Source: a virus
Strand: one strand, 5' to 3'
IMG/VR virus record: IMGVR_UViG_3300021963_000375
Span: 1-34,826 of that record
Length of the DNA stretch: 34,826 bases
Translations under genes and position numbers: made by a program
The notes under the pieces: model-generated
What the model was told of the DNA's origin: nothing
Seen by the model: only the letters and a program-made list of their open reading frames with translations
The model's database searches: none
Part shown: positions 6,898 to 21,762 of the stretch, piece after piece
Position numbering within the stretch: the first letter of the stretch is position 1
Layout: every line of letters begins with the position of its first letter

Positions 6898-7597
6898 AGG
6901 CATGATTAGCCTTGTAAATCAACCTTACAAATGTGTTCATTGTGGCAGAAGTTTTATGAAGGAAAAAACTTGTCTAGCCCATGTATGTGAGAGAAAACGT
7001 AGGGCTATGCAAGAGAATGAAAAAAGAGTACAGGCAGGATTTCTCACCTTCAATAGGTTTTATACACTCACACAGGGATCTAAAAAACCAAAAACATATG
7101 ATGAATTTTGTAACAGTACCTATTATAACGCCTTTGTCAAGTTTGGTAGTTTTGTCAACAACGTAAATCCTCTCTATCCTGAAAAATTTATTGACCATGT
7201 GATAAAAAGTGGAGTAAAATTAGATCATTGGTGTAGAGATGAACTATATTATTCATACCTATCTGAAATGTTAAAGGTTGAGCCTGTGGAGAGTGCTGTA
7301 CAAAGATCATTATCTACTATGATGGAATGGGCAGATACTCATGGAGCTCAATTTCAACAATATTTCAATTATGTTAGTTTAAATAAGGCAGTTCATGACA
7401 TAGTAAACGGTTTAATCAGCTGCTGGGTAATATTGAACAGTCAGGCAGGTAAAGAAATGATTTCAAAAATGACAGATGATCAATTAGATATGATAAGTGT
7501 AAATTTCGATATCAAATTTTGGTTAAAAAAATTCAATCAGAACCCTGCTGATGTTTCTCTAGTAAAAGAAATCTTAGATGAGGTAAAAATAAAATGA
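6890..7597 (+). CDS. C2H2-type zinc-finger phage protein, unknown function
   Basis: A 235-residue protein whose ATG at 6890 overlaps the end of the gp62-like gene and follows an AAAGGAA site. Near the N-terminus YKCVHCGRSFMKEKTCLAHVCERKRR forms a Cys-x2-Cys...Cys/His zinc finger. The remainder is helical with FNRFYTLTQGSKKPKTYDEF and YNAFVKFGSF, a pattern recurring in uncharacterised T4-like phage proteins. It ends by overlapping the cupin gene by 4 bases, so it is the last replication-operon gene before the sugar cassette. A DNA-binding role is likely from the finger. Confidence 0.8.
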   Translation: MNKGMISLVNQPYKCVHCGRSFMKEKTCLAHVCERKRRAMQENEKRVQAGFLTFNRFYTLTQGSKKPKTYDEFCNSTYYNAFVKFGSFVNNVNPLYPEKFIDHVIKSGVKLDHWCRDELYYSYLSEMLKVEPVESAVQRSLSTMMEWADTHGAQFQQYFNYVSLNKAVHDIVNGLISCWVILNSQAGKEMISKMTDDQLDMISVNFDIKFWLKKFNQNPADVSLVKEILDEVKIK

Positions 7598-7974
7598 GAC
7601 TTGAAGGAACTGTGCCTAAGGCATGGGGTAGTGAATTTATTTTTGCTACCAATGATAGCTATTGTGGAAAATTATTAAAATTTAACGAAGGTGGTCAATT
7701 CAGCATGCATTTTCATAATAAAAAAGATGAAAGTTGGTATGTATTAGAAGGAAGATTTATACTTAGAACTATAGACACTAATGACGCTACTTTTTTAGAA
7801 GTGCCCCTAAATCCAGGTGATGTGTGGAGAAATCCTCCATTATCGCCACATCAACTTACATGTTTGGAAGCAGGTACAATTATTGAAGTAAGTACTCCAG
7901 ATAGCATTGAAGACAATTATAGAGTAATGGCGGGAGATTCTCAAAGAGCTACAATGTACAAAAATGCCTTTTAA
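7594..7974 (+). CDS. Cupin, sugar isomerase-like
   Basis: A 126-residue single-domain cupin. It shows KAWGSEFIF at the N-terminus, GGQFSMHFHNKKDESWYVLEGRF (cupin motif 1 with HxH and Glu) and GDVWRNPPLSPHQL (motif 2 with the third His). The layout resembles the C-terminal cupin of type II mannose-6-phosphate isomerases. It overlaps the zinc-finger gene by 4 bases and the nucleotidyltransferase gene by 11 bases, so it is translated as part of a sugar-phosphate cassette. The substrate cannot be read from sequence; a hexose- or heptose-phosphate is likely by context. Confidence 0.85.
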   Translation: MRLEGTVPKAWGSEFIFATNDSYCGKLLKFNEGGQFSMHFHNKKDESWYVLEGRFILRTIDTNDATFLEVPLNPGDVWRNPPLSPHQLTCLEAGTIIEVSTPDSIEDNYRVMAGDSQRATMYKNAF

Positions 7975-8371
7975 AATCATAGTCAACGGAACATTTGATA
8001 TAATTCATATAGGGCATCTTCGCCTTTTATCTTACGCTAGATCTTTTACTGATAGTTTTGTCTATGTTCTTATTGATAGTGATAGAAGAGTAAAAGAATT
8101 AAAAGGTAATAAAAGACCTTACAATAATGAATACGAAAGGTCTAGTCTGTTATTTGCTCTAAAATATGTTGATAGGGTAGATGTGTTCGATACAGATCAA
8201 GAACTTGAAAACTATATTAAAAATTATAAAGCAGATTTAATGATCAAAGGCAGTGACTATAAAGATAAAAAAATTATAGGTGCCGAATATTGTAAAGATA
8301 TAAATTTTTATGAAAGACTTGAAAAGTACAGTAGTTCACAAAAGATTCAAGATATTATTAATAGGGGATAG
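7964..8371 (+). CDS. HldE C-terminal-type nucleotidyltransferase (heptose-1-phosphate adenylyltransferase-like)
   Basis: A 135-residue cytidylyltransferase-fold protein. NGTFDIIHIGH at residues 8-18 contains the HxGH nucleotide-binding signature. VLIDSDRRVKELKG and KRPYNNEYERSSLL match the second half of RfaE2/HldE, and VKGSDYKD is represented by IKGSDYKDK. In bacteria this domain adenylylates D-glycero-beta-D-manno-heptose 1-phosphate to give ADP-heptose for LPS core. Here it is a separate gene placed before the kinase, reversed relative to the fused bacterial HldE. It overlaps both neighbours. Confidence 0.86.
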   Translation: MPFKIIVNGTFDIIHIGHLRLLSYARSFTDSFVYVLIDSDRRVKELKGNKRPYNNEYERSSLLFALKYVDRVDVFDTDQELENYIKNYKADLMIKGSDYKDKKIIGAEYCKDINFYERLEKYSSSQKIQDIINRG

Positions 8372-9104
8372 CTGTGAGGATGTCTATTACATAGGTAGTG
8401 TAGACAGAATCAGTCCAGAAGCTCCGGTTCCAATATTAAAAATATCCGAACATTTTAGAACACCTGGGATGGCAGCAAATGTAAGGAAAAATTTTGTTAC
8501 TATAAATCAGAACGTTGAATTCATCTCTGAAAAAAGTAAAATTACAAAGACCAGATATATCGATAAGAAATCTGGTCAACAACTATTGAGAGTAGACGAC
8601 GAACCAAAAATTGCCAAATGGAATGGAAATTTTCAATTATTTCGTGACTTATCCTTTTTTGATGCCATAGTAATATCAGATTATAACAAAGGTTTTTTAT
8701 CCTATGAACACATTGAAAACATTATCTCAAAATCTAAAGTTCCTGTATTCATTGACACTAAAAAAGTAGATCTGGCAAAATTTGAAGGGGCATTTATCAA
8801 AATAAATCTAGCCGAATTTAATAATTTAACTAGTACTCCTAAAGAAAGAAAAGGACTAATAGTAACCAACGGTGATAGAGGTGCTATGTACAATGATAAA
8901 ATCTATCCCGCACCAAAAGTTGAAGTTTCTGATGTCTGTGGAGCAGGAGATACTTTTTTGGCCTTTTTAGTTTACGGATATCTACTTTACGAAAAAAACA
9001 TAGATAAGGCTATTGAAATAGCTAATCAAGCGGCCAGCATCAGTGTGCGTCATAGGGGTAATTACGCTCCTAGATTATCTGAATTAGAATTATTTGACAA
9101 CTAA
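8310..9104 (+). CDS. HldE N-terminal-type PfkB kinase (heptose-7-phosphate kinase-like)
   Basis: A 264-residue PfkB/ribokinase-family protein. FKILLIGDSCEDVYYIGSVDRISPEAPVPILK is the characteristic RfaE1 N-terminus, and DVCGAGDTFLAFLVYGYL holds the catalytic Asp and anion hole near residue 210. Bacterial HldE kinase domains are about 310-320 residues, so roughly 50 are missing, mostly between the N-terminal part and the substrate lid. It overlaps the nucleotidyltransferase gene by 62 bases in another frame, the longest overlap in the window, consistent with compaction or with splitting of a bifunctional ancestor. It would phosphorylate heptose 7-phosphate at position 1. Confidence 0.85.
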   Translation: MKDLKSTVVHKRFKILLIGDSCEDVYYIGSVDRISPEAPVPILKISEHFRTPGMAANVRKNFVTINQNVEFISEKSKITKTRYIDKKSGQQLLRVDDEPKIAKWNGNFQLFRDLSFFDAIVISDYNKGFLSYEHIENIISKSKVPVFIDTKKVDLAKFEGAFIKINLAEFNNLTSTPKERKGLIVTNGDRGAMYNDKIYPAPKVEVSDVCGAGDTFLAFLVYGYLLYEKNIDKAIEIANQAASISVRHRGNYAPRLSELELFDN

Positions 9105-11917: not shown

Positions 11918-13304
11918 TGTCAATTATTCTTACGATATTCAAAAATTATATCTAGAAATGTTTTTATCTGATGCTGAAACATTCATTAGGTGTCAGAATA
12001 TTTTCGATCATGAAAATTTTGATCAACGTCTTAGAGCAGTAGCTAAGTTCATAACTGACTATGTAGATCAATACAAGATCATGCCTGAAGTGAAAATTGT
12101 CTCAACGCACTGCGGTACACAGTTAGAAACAATTACATTACCTAAGGAAAACTATGACTGGCTGATGAATGAATTTGAGCAATTTAGCAGGCATAAGTCA
12201 CTGGAACGAGCTATACTTCGTTCAGCAGATCTAATAGAAAAAGGAGATTATGGTCCAGTAGAAAAACTGATTAAAGACGCTATTCAAATCGGCCTAAACA
12301 AAGACATGGGCACGGACTACTTTGAAGATCCAAGAGGTAGATTAGAAGCACTTAAAAATTCAAACGGCCAAATTTCAACAGGTTGGCCTTCAGTAGATAA
12401 AAAACTCTATGGCGGATTTAACAGAGGTGAACTCAATATTTTTGCCGCAGCATCGGGAGGAGGAAAAAGTTTATTCCTTGCTAATCTTGGTGTTAACTGG
12501 GCTATGGTAGGATTGAATGTGGTATATCTTACTTTCGAACTTGCCGAAAATCTTGTCAGTATGAGACTTGATAGTATGGTAACTGGTATTGCTACTAGAG
12601 AGATTTTTAAGAACATCGATGATGTCGAACTCAAGGTGAAAATGGCCGGAAAACGTGCGGGTAGTATACAGGTCAAGTATATGCCATCAGGAAAAAATTG
12701 TAATGATATTCGTGCTTATTTAAAAGAATATCAGGTCAAAAAAGGTCAAAAACCAGACGTTTTATTGATAGATTACCTAGATTTAATGATGCCTTTATCG
12801 GTGAAGGTGTCGCCTAGTGATCTGTTTGTCAAAGACAAATATGTATCAGAAGAGATAAGAAACCTGGCTATGGAAACAAATTGTATCACAGTGACAGCCA
12901 GTCAGTTAAACAGAGCAGCAGTGGAAGAAATAGAATTTGATCACAGTCATATTTCAGGTGGTCTTAGTAAGATTCAAACTGCTGACAATGTAATTGGTAT
13001 CTTTACCAGCAGAGCTATGAAAGAACGTGGCCGCTATCAAATACAGTTTATGAAAACAAGATCAAGTAGTGGTGTTGGACAGAAAGTTGATCTAGAATTT
13101 AATGTAGATACTCTAAGAATAAATGATCTAGGGGATGATTCAGAGTCAACCCCACAAACAACCAGCAATACTATATATCAGGGACTAAAACGAACCAGCA
13201 GTGTAGAACCAGATCAAGGTATATCAGCTCCTAAAATTAAGCCGATTAAGGGAGGGGCTGATATAAGAAATATGCTGGCTAATCTTAATAGTGAAAAAGA
13301 TTAA
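11910..13304 (+). CDS. 41: Replicative DNA helicase gp41 (DnaB family)
   Basis: A 464-residue DnaB-type helicase. The N-terminal helical domain is followed by GWPSVDKKLYGGFNRGELNIF and Walker A AASGGGKS at ~180-187. Walker B is VLLIDYLDLM, and SQLNRAAVE...HISGGLSKIQTADNVIGI is the H3/H4 region. It unwinds DNA ahead of the fork as a hexamer and stimulates the primase encoded just upstream. Its stop shares bases with the stop of the convergent AlgH gene (TTAA at 13301-13304). Confidence 0.95.
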   Translation: MPSVNYSYDIQKLYLEMFLSDAETFIRCQNIFDHENFDQRLRAVAKFITDYVDQYKIMPEVKIVSTHCGTQLETITLPKENYDWLMNEFEQFSRHKSLERAILRSADLIEKGDYGPVEKLIKDAIQIGLNKDMGTDYFEDPRGRLEALKNSNGQISTGWPSVDKKLYGGFNRGELNIFAAASGGGKSLFLANLGVNWAMVGLNVVYLTFELAENLVSMRLDSMVTGIATREIFKNIDDVELKVKMAGKRAGSIQVKYMPSGKNCNDIRAYLKEYQVKKGQKPDVLLIDYLDLMMPLSVKVSPSDLFVKDKYVSEEIRNLAMETNCITVTASQLNRAAVEEIEFDHSHISGGLSKIQTADNVIGIFTSRAMKERGRYQIQFMKTRSSSGVGQKVDLEFNVDTLRINDLGDDSESTPQTTSNTIYQGLKRTSSVEPDQGISAPKIKPIKGGADIRNMLANLNSEKD

Positions 13305-13867
13305 AACAGATTTTCTACTTGTATTTTTACACTTTCATTAATGACATGATGCCATTGGTCACTACCACTGGTTAGAAAAACTAGATCAGCATTGGCCTCG
13401 ATTAAATTCCAACCTAAACTAATGTCATTATAGGGAGGATCACAATCAATCTGATTTTCTAAATGTCCGGGTAACCACCTAGTATATCCTGCTATAGCTC
13501 TAAAACTACTCGGTCCTTTCCCTGAGGCTATGGCAACTAACACACTCATATCATTGCTGATGGCTAAGTCTCTTGTTATAGAGGTTGATCCGGTGCTCAT
13601 CCAATCCGATGTATGAACAACTATGATTCTGTTAGTATTTTCTACGCCGCCGAAATATACCGGAGTATCTTCATTGTAACTAAGCCCTAGACCCTGCATA
13701 ATGGTAGCAAGATTAGTATTGTTTTCCATTGGCTTGTTTATCTGTAGTCCAACACTACCACTGTTATCTTGATCTATTAACAGTATCACACCCTTTCTAA
13801 GTATGCTATCATTTCTCTTAGGGTGAGCTGCTATTAAATAGCCTTTGTAATTATCTATGTCTTCCAT
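13301..13867 (-). CDS. algH: AlgH/YqgE family protein (UPF0301)
   Basis: A 188-residue protein of the AlgH/YqgE (DUF179) family. It begins YKGYLIAAHPKRNDSILRKGVILLI, with GSVGLQINKPM, PVYFGGVENTNRIIVVHTSDW and FRAIAGYTRWLPGHLENQI, all diagnostic family blocks. In bacteria the family is widespread, linked to envelope polysaccharide and gene regulation, but its biochemical role is unsettled. Here it is encoded opposite to gp41 with a late-type box that predicts a leaderless mRNA. A cellular gene captured by a phage is the simplest explanation. Confidence 0.9.
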   Translation of the reverse strand: MEDIDNYKGYLIAAHPKRNDSILRKGVILLIDQDNSGSVGLQINKPMENNTNLATIMQGLGLSYNEDTPVYFGGVENTNRIIVVHTSDWMSTGSTSITRDLAISNDMSVLVAIASGKGPSSFRAIAGYTRWLPGHLENQIDCDPPYNDISLGWNLIEANADLVFLTSGSDQWHHVINESVKIQVENLF

Positions 13868-15091: not shown

Positions 15092-15511
15092 ATGGAAAAA
15101 ATAAAAAAATATCTTTGGATGACCGCAGGATTTATCTTTTTAGGGGTTGCCTATATTGGTGTGGTTACTCCGGGCATACCCTGGTCAACACCTAGTCTTA
15201 TAGCAGCCTATTGCTTTGCCAAGAGCAGTGAAAGATGGCACAATTATGTTATGAATCATAGATTATTCGGCCCGTTTATTCGTAATTGGCAAGATGGCCG
15301 TGTATTCCCAACCTATGCCAAATGGGCCATGTTTATTTGTATGGACATATCACTAGTGATAATTTGGTTTACAACTTACAATGTGAAATTAACTGTAGGA
15401 GTTGCTCTGTTTATGGCATTTTGGATGATTTGGGCTACACGCTATCCCGGAAGCAAAGAAGAAGCAGATCGAAGACGTGAAGCGGGAGAAAAACTAGGTT
15501 GGTTAAAATAA
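15092..15511 (+). CDS. DUF454 (YbaN-like) inner-membrane protein
   Basis: A 139-residue membrane protein. It has KYLWMTAGFIFLGVAYIGVVTPGIPWSTPSLIAAYCFAKSSERWHNYVMNHRLFGPFIRNW, the standard DUF454/YbaN signature, with three or four membrane segments and a charged C-terminus. The family is common in proteobacteria and appears in some aquatic phages; its function is unknown. A TTAAATA box lies about 30 bases upstream. It ends at a strong bidirectional terminator facing the porin gene. Its place beside the porin and exported protein suggests an envelope-directed module. Confidence 0.85.
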   Translation: MEKIKKYLWMTAGFIFLGVAYIGVVTPGIPWSTPSLIAAYCFAKSSERWHNYVMNHRLFGPFIRNWQDGRVFPTYAKWAMFICMDISLVIIWFTTYNVKLTVGVALFMAFWMIWATRYPGSKEEADRRREAGEKLGWLK

Positions 15512-15552: not shown

Positions 15553-16572
15553 TTAGAAACGATGACGTATACCAACACCTGATACACGAGTATCTGCGAA
15601 GGCTGTGTTTGTTCTGTTTACACCGTCATTGGTGTAATTAGTATCACGTACAGCAGCATAGACATCTGTACGCTTACTGAGACTGTGGCTTAGGCCAACT
15701 GCCCAACTTGCTGTTTCTGCTGACTTGTTGCCTATAAAGGTGTGATCGTGCTTGGCATAACTTACCATAGCTGTGTTACCTTTACCTAAAGGCATAGCAG
15801 CACCAAGGCTCCAACCTTCATCCTCTTTAGTCACTGCGTCGCTATGTTCAACTTTGTCCCATTGAGCATAAACTTTGGCAACCTTAAGATCATAACTACC
15901 GCCTAGGATAACTGAACTCATAGCAGGCTTACCTAGACCTTGTTCAACTTCCTGCCAGGTCGCTGTAAGACCAATCGGACCGCGGAACATCATTGCGCCA
16001 ACGCTCTTACCAGCCTGCTTGGTTCCAGTGGCATCATCAACAATACCTGCTGAATATACACCAGACACTGTTAAACCAGCGACATTGGTTTTAACTTGTA
16101 CAGCATTATTCCAACCACTGTCAACACCACCAGCTGCTAGGTTGAAATTAGTAACACCAAAACGCTGTGTGACCATAGGGCTAAAAACAAAACTGTCACC
16201 AAATGAGTTAAATGCTACAGTAGAGATAAAGTATGGAGTGGTCACACGACCAACTTGTACTTCACCTAGCTTACTGCCCAATGATACATAGGCATTACGA
16301 GCATAGAAAGCATCACCGTTGAAACGCCCTGTTGAGGCTGTATCCGGGCGTAGAAATGTTTCTAGAACCACGCTGGCCTGATAGGCGCCAACTTGCTCAA
16401 CACTCTTAATACCAATGTGGCTGGTACTCATACCACCTGCTGATACTTGATTGGCAGAGTGCTTTCCTGATGTGTGACCAAAATAAGCATCTGCCAAACC
16501 GTAGAGGCTGGTCTGGGCTGCTGCCACTGTGGTTACACTGGCTAGTAATGTTGCTAATAAAATTTTCTTCAT
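15553..16572 (-). CDS. Outer-membrane porin, Burkholderiales type
   Basis: A complete 339-residue general porin of the Gram-negative porin (Porin_4) family. The signal peptide is MKKILLATLLASVTTVAAA. The mature protein begins QTSLYGLADAYFGH, the usual betaproteobacterial opening, and YARNAYVSLGSKLGEVQVGR is the family hallmark. Alternating amphipathic strands continue to a C-terminal Phe (IRHRF), the BAM recognition signal. Full length, intact signals, a good ribosome binding site and its own sigma70 promoter imply function. It would insert a trimeric channel in the host outer membrane. In a lytic phage this is rare; likely roles are altered nutrient uptake or receptor replacement and superinfection exclusion. 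Confidence 0.93.
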   Translation of the reverse strand: MKKILLATLLASVTTVAAAQTSLYGLADAYFGHTSGKHSANQVSAGGMSTSHIGIKSVEQVGAYQASVVLETFLRPDTASTGRFNGDAFYARNAYVSLGSKLGEVQVGRVTTPYFISTVAFNSFGDSFVFSPMVTQRFGVTNFNLAAGGVDSGWNNAVQVKTNVAGLTVSGVYSAGIVDDATGTKQAGKSVGAMMFRGPIGLTATWQEVEQGLGKPAMSSVILGGSYDLKVAKVYAQWDKVEHSDAVTKEDEGWSLGAAMPLGKGNTAMVSYAKHDHTFIGNKSAETASWAVGLSHSLSKRTDVYAAVRDTNYTNDGVNRTNTAFADTRVSGVGIRHRF

Positions 16573-16971: not shown

Positions 16972-17628
16972 ATGATCCAAGATTCGGGAATAAACTGGAT
17001 TAGATTGGACAGCCGTAATCAGCTGATAAACCACTATTGGGATCTTCTAAAGGAAATAGATCTTTACATACATAGGCATAACGATCTAGAAGATGCTACT
17101 TATTGGGCTATTTGTAGAGATAATACCACACATAATGAAATCTTTTGTTCAAACAACACAGGCAAAACGATTACCACACCGTGGACCACTGTTGCCAAAG
17201 AATTCCCTGAACTATCAATCATACAACGTAAACTTCAACTCCATGCCTATATTGGTAGAACAATGGTGGGTAATTGGGGCATACATCGTCATTGTTATGC
17301 TCCTGATAGTGCATGGAACATAGCAATTTTTGATTCAGGATGTAGTAATGGTCATGTTGATTTTTATAAAACATCAACAAGTAAATTAGATCCTAATAAC
17401 GCTTACTATGAAGATGAAGTGGATTTTAATTCAGATGGATTCACGTTATGGGAATCTGTTCCTATTATGACTGGAGATATGCTAAGTCTTAATACTTGGG
17501 CATGGCATAGTCATATCACAGAAAATAGAAATGTCTGTGCTTTTCTTAGCTGTTTAAAAAACACACCCCCTGGCACTGGAACTAGATCTCGTATAAAAAG
17601 AACCTTAAAAGAGGTCGAAAAAACATAG
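16972..17628 (+). CDS. Phage protein with His-rich double-stranded beta-helix-like core, possible oxygenase
   Basis: A 218-residue protein. The segment WGIHRHCYAPDSAWNIAIFDSGCSNGHVDFYKT, then GDMLSLNTWAWHSHI about 50 residues later, gives an HxH...D...H arrangement that could ligate a metal as in cupins or 2-oxoglutarate/Fe(II) oxygenases. No classical arginine motif is clear. A perfect late box at its start marks it as late and leaderless. Its stop lies inside the minus-strand tmRNA terminator. The enzymatic guess is weak; a virion-associated protein is the alternative. Confidence 0.65.
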   Translation: MIQDSGINWIRLDSRNQLINHYWDLLKEIDLYIHRHNDLEDATYWAICRDNTTHNEIFCSNNTGKTITTPWTTVAKEFPELSIIQRKLQLHAYIGRTMVGNWGIHRHCYAPDSAWNIAIFDSGCSNGHVDFYKTSTSKLDPNNAYYEDEVDFNSDGFTLWESVPIMTGDMLSLNTWAWHSHITENRNVCAFLSCLKNTPPGTGTRSRIKRTLKEVEKT

Positions 17629-17645
17629 GCTCCTAAGAGCCTATG
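17618..17645 (-). terminator. Rho-independent terminator of the tmRNA gene
   Basis: On the minus strand CATAGGCTC, loop TTAG, GAGCCTATG, then TTTTTT. A perfect 9-bp stem directly after the tmRNA coding piece. Confidence 0.88.
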
Positions 17646-17691
17646 CTGCTAGTTTCTGTTGCCAGGTATAACTACCCCTGCATACCTTTGA

Positions 17692-17724
17692 TTAGGCTGC
17701 TAGAGCGTAAACTTCATCGTTTGC
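17692..17724 (-). CDS. tmRNA proteolysis-tag reading frame
   Basis: GCA AAC GAT GAA GTT TAC GCT CTA GCA GCC TAA encodes ANDEVYALAA, differing from the E. coli tag ANDENYALAA at one residue. The terminal ALAA is the ClpXP/ClpAP degron. It is read from GCA by a resumed ribosome, with no start codon. Confidence 0.95.
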   Translation of the reverse strand, partial: ANDEVYALAA

Positions 17725-17912
17725 GTCTATTTGGTTTTGCTAGCTTTAGGAGCTTCGCCTTGCCTGTTGTCCATATCTGTACTCTTTGCCTCGTCGAAAC
17801 CATGGTCAGGCCCTTCAGGAGTAGACTGTAATTTCATATCTGCTGGCACAGAACCAATACCAACTTCACGATCCCATTCTCTCTGCGTATACTTGATTAT
17901 AAAATCTCCTCT

Positions 17913-17995
17913 TGGTGGACCTGCCGGGAATCGAACCCGGGTCCGCGACACTTTTCCTTCAACTTCATACAACAATAAAAAACTTTGACAGACTC
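17913..17995 (-). ncRNA. Acceptor piece of the permuted tmRNA
   Basis: This is the alanine-charged half. The T arm and encoded CCA are certain; the 5' boundary is uncertain because the pairing with the coding piece beyond the acceptor stem could not be resolved by eye. Confidence 0.75.
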
Positions 17996-18100
17996 CATAG
18001 GGCGTGTGGGTCCTCTGTCTAGACATATGAGCCTCTCACTCATACACCCTGCTATGCAGGATTACCCCTACCAGATCCAGTATTTAACATTATCTACGCT

Positions 18101-18108
18101 GATAAATA
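18101..18108 (+). promoter_or_regulatory. T4-like late promoter box
   Basis: GATAAATA; predicted +1 at 18114, three bases before the ATG at 18117. It overlaps the tmRNA promoter on the other strand. Confidence 0.55.
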
Positions 18109-18137
18109 ATTATACTATGAAAACAGCACAAGAACAA
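18109..18137 (-). promoter_or_regulatory. Sigma70-type promoter for the tmRNA
   Basis: On the minus strand TTGTTC, 17 bp, TATAAT (18114-18109), giving a start near 18102 and a precursor about 100 bases longer than the acceptor piece. It overlaps the start of the divergent late gene at 18117. Confidence 0.6.
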
Positions 18138-20877: not shown

Positions 20878-20910
20878 TAATTCTTTAAATAACTTATCGA
20901 GGAGATGACA

Positions 20911-21762
20911 TTGGCTATCAAGTCAAACACTGTATTAGAGTTCGATCAAGATGCTATCAAGCGCCGTGAGCGTGAGGTTGCCAAGGAAACTGATACCCAA
21001 ATCTTAGACCGCCTAGCAGAGCGTTTTCAGATCCTCAACGACATGACTCGGGCTGTCAAAGAGGGTGCCGTTCGTGCTATGATTGTGAGTGGTCCTCCAG
21101 GTGTGGGCAAAAGTCACGGGGTAGAGGCAGTATTGGCCAAGGCCGATCTGTTCAATACCCTAGCTGAACGCAAGCCCAAGTATGAGATCGTCAAAGGTGC
21201 CATGAGTGCCATTGGTCTATATGCCAAGCTTTATGAGTTTGCTGATCGGGGCAACGTTGTGGTATTTGATGACTGCGACTCCATCTTGTTGGAAGACCTT
21301 TCGTTGAACATCCTCAAGGGTGCTCTGGATAGTTCAAAGCGGCGTTTCATCTCGTGGAACACTGACAGCCGCTTGTTGCGTTCAGAAGGAGTGCCTAATC
21401 GTTTTGAGTTTAAGGGTTCAGCGATCTTCATCACTAACATCAAGTTTGAGCATGTTCGAAGCAAGAAACTGCGTGATCACTTGGATGCTCTGGAGTCACG
21501 TTGTCACTACATTGACCTACAGATGGACACCGAGCGTGAGAAGATCCTGCGTATTGAGCAAGTGGTCAAGCAGGGGGACATGTTGGAAGACTATGACTTT
21601 AAGCCCTGGGACACGGATGACATCTTAGACTTTATCAAGGCAAATTCATCAAAGTTGCGTGAACTATCACTGCGCATGGTAATCAAGATCGCAGACTTGA
21701 AGAAGGGTATGCCCTCAAATTGGCAGGCAGTGGCTAGAACTACCTGTATGCGTCGTGTCTAG
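20911..21762 (+). CDS. AAA-type ATPase
   Basis: A 283-residue P-loop ATPase. Walker A is GPPGVGKS (~61-68) and Walker B VVVFDDCD (~111-118). FITNIKFE is a plausible sensor 1 Asn, and a helical lid follows. The GAGGAG site directly abuts an ATG at 20905 but is correctly spaced for the TTG at 20911, so the TTG start (AIKSNTVLEF) is favoured; the ATG would add two residues. Similar AAA proteins occur in T4-like and other phages without assigned function. It has its own promoter and overlaps the next gene by 8 bases. Confidence 0.88.
   Translation: MAIKSNTVLEFDQDAIKRREREVAKETDTQILDRLAERFQILNDMTRAVKEGAVRAMIVSGPPGVGKSHGVEAVLAKADLFNTLAERKPKYEIVKGAMSAIGLYAKLYEFADRGNVVVFDDCDSILLEDLSLNILKGALDSSKRRFISWNTDSRLLRSEGVPNRFEFKGSAIFITNIKFEHVRSKKLRDHLDALESRCHYIDLQMDTEREKILRIEQVVKQGDMLEDYDFKPWDTDDILDFIKANSSKLRELSLRMVIKIADLKKGMPSNWQAVARTTCMRRV

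Follow-up and report, generated by a model that had tools for sequence, protein, structure and literature searches.

The permuted tmRNA gene

The window, by which we mean the whole stretch of 34,826 nucleotides analysed here (IMG/VR record IMGVR_UViG_3300021963_000375), carries on its minus strand, at 17621-18035, a permuted (two-piece) tmRNA gene of betaproteobacterial type that is complete. ARAGORN calls a permuted tmRNA with the tag ANDEVYALAA at 17601-18005 on the same strand, and both Rfam models are exceeded over their full lengths: RF04321 (tmRNA_permuted) at 119 bits against a gathering score of 47 (E 6.8e-23, model positions 1-213 of 213, minus strand), and RF01850 (beta_tmRNA) at 108.9 bits against 84 (E 1.8e-32, 1-331 of 331, at 17621-18035). 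The match is far above chance, and all of the parts needed for function are present. A first-pass annotation made from the letters alone had proposed a phage-encoded permuted tmRNA and had named a covariance-model search as its check, which bears the proposal out.

In this gene the acceptor piece comes first (17913-17977, minus strand, as are all tmRNA coordinates of the window below), its extent being set by the RF04321 alignment, by motif positions and by covariation of the T stem and acceptor stem in phage relatives, with a putative 5' end. It contains UGUUG (17974-17970), the 5' strand of a helix formed with the coding piece, followed by the T arm with its encoded CCA (17944-17913), within which the acceptor 3' strand CAGGTCC (17923-17917) and the encoded ACCA are recognised by sequence motif. 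In the coding piece downstream, the acceptor 5' strand GGGCCTG (17807-17813) pairs with CAGGTCC at 7/7 positions, including G3.U70, and is followed by a D-like arm, GGTTTCGAC (17793-17801), placed by the Rfam alignment and its motif. AATAGAC stands directly 5' of the resume codon GCA, from which the tag frame runs to TAA (17692-17724), encoding ANDEVYALAA according to both ARAGORN and the RF01850 alignment. The gene ends in an intrinsic terminator, CATAGGCTC-TTAG-GAGCCTATG plus T6 (17618-17645), whose hairpin proper spans 17645-17624 and which is evident in the sequence, in the RF01850 terminal helix and in the predicted fold. All of these elements, from T arm to terminator, lie where the first-pass annotation had put them. 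The G3.U70 pair, which is the alanine identity pair of the acceptor stem, is present in the window and in every phage tmRNA compared.

The sigma70 promoter proposed in the same annotation fares less well: a -10-like TATAAT is present (18109-18114), but the best -35 upstream of the tmRNA matches at about 3/6 positions and a sigma-70 consensus scan found no 9/12 match at this site, which leaves a weak candidate promoter. Single-strand folding alone gave a weak signal (z -1.6 to -1.7 for the long pieces and 0.45 for the acceptor piece), as is expected of a pseudoknotted two-piece RNA, and was not used as evidence.

Selection on the two-piece structure and the tag

A scan of IMG/VR recovered at least 58 distinct permuted tmRNAs, so that the earlier statement that phage tmRNAs are uncommon is dated, as is also clear from the 53 two-piece tmRNAs counted among 18,146 phage genomes in 2022 (PMC9004378, in its available text). 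From the permuted tmRNAs collected in this way, 45 distinct phage T-arm/acceptor constructs were aligned, with the acceptor 5' strand placed via the D-like motif and not via complementarity. Paired cells made up 93.5% of this set as opposed to 79% in shuffles, cells with double changes numbered 70 as opposed to 19.3, and the covariation score was 0.334 as opposed to 0.063 in shuffles and 0.05-0.10 in slid versions; the figure is conservative, since rows with another offset, the window included, were scored as broken. Compensatory changes are found across phages in both the T stem and the acceptor stem, the latter being the 7-bp complementarity noticed at first reading.

Phage tags vary, while the degron end L/M/V/I-AA is kept in 51/58 of them among the matches listed. 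This bears on the idea that the tmRNA is a decoy, competing for SmpB or AlaRS and thereby blunting host trans-translation, for which there is a precedent in the tag-less tmRNA of phage DS6A (cited in the accessible part of PMC11915505) and which would suit phages that carry a tmRNA without a detected smpB. A decoy would have no need of a conserved degron end, however, and the tag frame of the window is complete and ends as a degron, so this explanation is an unlikely one.

Very long predicted tags of 27-31 aa, often ANADTFDFSAMSFTGN..., were also observed (L054, L057, L070, L093, L101, L111, L116, L432 and others), and some of these very-long-tag phage permuted tmRNAs end in a normal ANDSRFALAA. 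The tmRNA of one related locus (L200, 15443-15775, minus strand) has an atypical T loop, GGCAGAG for TTCGATT, and GATTCGAC replaces GGTTTCGAC.

The phage, its relatives and the origin of the gene

The window covers part of the genome of a T4-like phage of jumbo type, a freshwater virus of bacteria from a large aquatic clade, and encodes a gp32-like SSB, UvsX, UvsY, a UvsW-like helicase, a primase and a DnaB-like helicase. Among isolates, the helicase is nearest to those of the jumbo phages PA5oct, Atu_ph07 and Phosso, and it is 72-85% identical in 80 IMG/VR loci, some of them on contigs of 200-355 kb. An AlgH-like (DUF179) gene (13301-13867, minus) adjoins the replicative helicase 3' and is kept in 114/160 related loci (L200-L359), which makes it core to this phage clade. 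Cupin, cytidylyltransferase-like and PfkB-like kinase genes stand in tandem at 7594-9104 (plus) and resemble a split HldE-type sugar-nucleotide module. The AAA-type gene (phrog_1250; 20905-21762, plus) is co-oriented with the helicase in the window and opposed to it in relatives, through an inversion or an assembly joint.

The tmRNA lies in the variable interval from hyp13897 to this AAA gene, together with two phage-carried betaproteobacterial genes, a porin (15553-16572, minus) and a DUF454 gene (15092-15511, plus). Both are syntenic in the closest relative, contig IMGVR_UViG_3300021963_000051 (L368/L488), in which DUF454 is 97%, the porin 91% and the helicase 84% identical; its tmRNA has the identical tag at the same syntenic place, and tmRNAs are present at the matching position in L200 and L201. 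As host-like genes adjoin the tmRNA in a region of variable cargo, the gene could be a passenger, host DNA caught by accident with the porin and DUF454 genes and having no selected function. This is very improbable, as tag, stems and terminator are intact in syntenic relatives, L488 and L201 show no decayed stems or tags, both stems have undergone compensatory change across phages, and permuted tmRNAs recur in the clade, being found in 8/20 related phage records. A search of 20 related phage records, several being fragments, detected no smpB, and the tmRNA of the window would therefore rely on host SmpB for trans-translation.

Among plasmid records, the porin matches only betaproteobacterial genera, which points indirectly to betaproteobacterial hosts, and an origin of the tmRNA in a betaproteobacterial-type lineage is likewise supported indirectly, in that the beta model scores best. 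To this extent the suggestion that the phage acquired the gene from such a host stands. A recent capture from the present host finds no such backing: in a sample of genomes that did not extend to Betaproteobacteria, the exact tag ANDEVYALAA was found under no labels but Lysobacterales, Xanthomonas, Thiotrichaceae/Thiomargarita and Cyclobacteriaceae, and 4/4 tested genomes that carry this tag contain no permuted tmRNA. As a guide to the nearest bacterial donor the exact tag led to no betaproteobacterial genome, and sampling within the class and phylum to which a Lysobacterales genome belongs brought up nothing resembling Burkholderiales. One member of that class (L137) has a permuted tmRNA with the tag ANDDNFEVALAA and an intervening segment of 4 nt, apparently adjoining smpB, while its order-mates have one-piece tmRNAs.

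A reading frame in the intervening segment

Between the encoded CCA and the acceptor 5' strand lies an intervening segment (IVS) of 99 nt (17814-17912), delimited by sequence and predicted fold, which is expected to be absent from the mature tmRNA and which is far above the betaproteobacterial model in length, with an unaligned stretch of 86 residues as opposed to 16. It opens, immediately 3' of CCA, with the Shine-Dalgarno sequence AGAGGAG (17912-17906), predicted to be partly paired with CTCCT near the IVS 3' end. The first-pass annotation, right about the tmRNA, had missed an open reading frame of 57 codons here (17727-17900). This frame runs from AUA (17900-17898) through IKYTQREWDREVGIGSVPADMKLQSTPEGPDHGFDEAKSTDMDNRQGEAPKASKTK to the stop TAG (17729-17727), reads I-I-KYTQREWDREVGIGSVPADMKLQSTPE, crosses the acceptor 5' strand and the D-like arm, and ends 2 bases before the resume codon; as it continues without a stop 5' of AUA, across the T arm, AUA is a putative start.

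The peptide belongs to a KYTQREWDR-x-VG family and matches the IVS ORF of L368 at 86% over 56 aa. Its IMG/VR relatives number 34 loci. In L368 and L369 the frame occupies the same IVS place, with ATG and Shine-Dalgarno, and the AUA of the window sits where L368 has ATG. Most other KYTQREWDR relatives are free-standing small genes, eight of which have a permuted tmRNA nearby (L370, L374, L376, L377, L380, L386, L387 and L391), at 1-2 kb downstream in those examined; in several marine phages these free-standing genes lie between lysozyme-like and nuclease-like genes. A related YYTxxEW peptide is encoded in the IVS of L017, L055, L056, L415 and L498. No PHROG family was found for the peptide of the window, nor any convincing match among deposited phages.

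With the coding IVS described below, the window shares a Shine-Dalgarno directly after CCA and a frame that is open and conserved as protein, but no ATG, GTG or TTG is present 9-14 nt after CCA, where the start codons of that class lie. NCBI table 11 includes AUA among the start codons, although it is a poor one. The lack of a usual start codon after the Shine-Dalgarno would fit a phage permuted tmRNA of the ordinary kind, with an IVS that is a mere spacer and a frame that is a product of chance or a dead relic, and so would the comparison with L368 over the whole IVS, which is not strongly synonymous (13 nonsynonymous and 7 synonymous sites), and the non-coding IVS in many relatives. Such a spacer would not be expected to encode a peptide with homologues both in the IVS of L368 and L369 and among free-standing phage genes, nor to show, over a 17-codon core around KYTQREWDR, 7 synonymous and 2 nonsynonymous codons against L369, and it sits poorly with the coding signal of the class as a whole; we hold it at somewhat short of even odds. 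Since the core is conserved at the protein level, the frame of the window is probably translated now or was so recently.

Coding intervening segments as a class

A recurring design is seen in phage IVS, where TAAGGA or AGAGGAG right after CCA is followed 9-14 nt on by ATG and by a frame spanning the IVS, often stopping with TGA 1 base 5' of the acceptor strand. In a sample chosen blind to the IVS, namely the 35 distinct tmRNAs with an IVS of at least 70 nt among the matches listed in IMG/VR, Shine-Dalgarno, start and a frame over at least 85% of the IVS occur together in 10, compared to a mean of 0.3 and a maximum of 2 in 300 trials with shuffled IVS and 0 on the reverse strand. A second sample was chosen only by Shine-Dalgarno and ATG, openness itself being unselected; here the frame is open in 60/62 loci as opposed to 8.9 expected (2 and 6 in the other frames), and in 19/19 as opposed to 0.35 expected where the IVS is at least 150 nt. 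The synonymous fraction is 0.66 in one IVS family and 0.65 in another, compared to neutral values of 0.30 and 0.23, respectively, the pairs being non-independent. By these sequence measures the signal for coding IVS frames as a class is overwhelming, and the IVS would be a small protein gene in many phage permuted tmRNA genes, across dozens of related viruses.

The proteins so encoded are diverse. The IVS of L410 (248 nt) encodes a protein that scores above the Pfam cut-off for PGDYG, matches phrog_419 at 1e-11 and has similar sequences in 650 phage records, and that of L426 (382 nt) encodes 122 aa, for which a GNAT fold is only suggestive, below cut-off; most other IVS proteins have weak PHROG/Pfam matches or none. 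One 24-aa membrane-peptide family in the IVS is combined with a wide variety of tags, and the tags of L307 and L438 differ although their IVS is identical, which argues that tag and IVS cassette are reshuffled. In many phage permuted tmRNAs, by contrast, the IVS is non-coding. The cultured phages BUCT628 (MZ593728.1, L546), QDWS595 (OK149171.2, L547) and DLP_6 (KU682439.2, L548) carry permuted tmRNAs, unannotated as such, and no Shine-Dalgarno-led IVS frame is present in these three isolates. In a sample of alphaproteobacterial permuted genes, the IVS measures 6-59 nt in 26/27, and the exception holds a repeat.

Proposed working of the gene

Taken together, the best explanation, to which we give a probability of roughly 0.8, is a working phage permuted ssrA whose IVS has been turned into a small-protein cassette, the window frame having AUA as its putative start. 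The gene would be read as a single transcript from which host tRNA-processing enzymes excise the IVS, leaving two pieces joined by two helices, one of them the acceptor stem. The tmRNA would be charged by host AlaRS via G3.U70, and together with host SmpB it would free ribosomes stalled during infection, adding AANDEVYALAA to the stalled proteins and so marking them for host proteases. Of the two roles suggested at first reading, rescue on degraded mRNA is plausible from the sequence, while nothing was found in support of rescue on the phage's own leaderless mRNAs.

In the phage family of the window and in many other aquatic phages, the IVS would serve as a cassette that houses a gene for a small protein. 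The Shine-Dalgarno after CCA is predicted to be paired with the IVS 3' end, with a probability of being unpaired of 0.05 that lies below 0.3 in 69/69 coding IVS and becomes 0.43 on shuffling of that end. While the transcript is nascent the Shine-Dalgarno would be free, and folding of the precursor for processing would close it, so that the cassette could be translated at first and then be shut. This stem also occurs where the IVS has no frame, which makes processing its probable older role, and it may serve processing only.

A broader reading, which we regard as evenly balanced, is that the permuted tmRNA genes of phages have a dual nature, the excised spacer being a swappable small-protein cassette whose translation is stopped by precursor folding or processing through closure of the Shine-Dalgarno. 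As the nested frame of the window enters the tmRNA body and overlaps its structural parts, a cut at the acceptor end would take away the stop of the frame, and maturation would leave a stop-less message that the same tmRNA could rescue.

Relation to known systems and significance

Phage two-piece tmRNAs are already known, and the window adds a new member to the permuted tmRNA family. With the betaproteobacterial permuted tmRNA (RF01850, merged in RF04321) it shares the order of parts, the acceptor/T-arm structure, the inter-piece helix, the terminator hairpin and a tag that starts with ANDE and ends with ALAA; it differs in being phage-borne, in its tag ANDEVYALAA and in its 99-nt IVS with a reading frame, as opposed to a much shorter consensus IVS. 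Another two-piece ssrA in aquatic T4-like phages has been described in methylophage Melnitz and pelagimyophages, with a proposed role in host takeover, where the tmRNA is of alphaproteobacterial type and lies under a glutamine riboswitch; an IVS protein was not found in the available text of that account (PMC9004378). No riboswitch was found upstream of the tmRNA gene of the window, unlike in Melnitz.

Inserts in the IVS of permuted tmRNAs are known as one tRNA-Ala gene and one repetitive element, and a protein-coding IVS was not found in the accessible part of the 2025 tmRNA database paper (PMC11915505). The tmRNAs with a group I intron treated there likewise have an in-gene segment that is absent from the mature tmRNA, but this intron is self-splicing and lies in the T loop, whereas the IVS of the window would be cut out by tRNA-processing enzymes (PMC11915505, same part). 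A literature text search, thin on subscription journals, found no published IVS-encoded proteins, an absence that is not proof. What is new is the coding capacity of the IVS that separates CCA from the acceptor 5' strand.

It is unusual for a protein gene to be housed in the supposed waste segment of a non-coding RNA gene, and this cassette position recurs in many aquatic phages. The coding IVS contributes small proteins, which may escape gene finders because the region is counted as RNA, and shows a route by which phages can pack genes inside RNA genes. It also offers a ready test of competition between tmRNA maturation and translation, and the role of the phage tmRNA becomes more testable through several marine phages that have a free-standing copy of the IVS protein family of the window close to permuted tmRNA genes.
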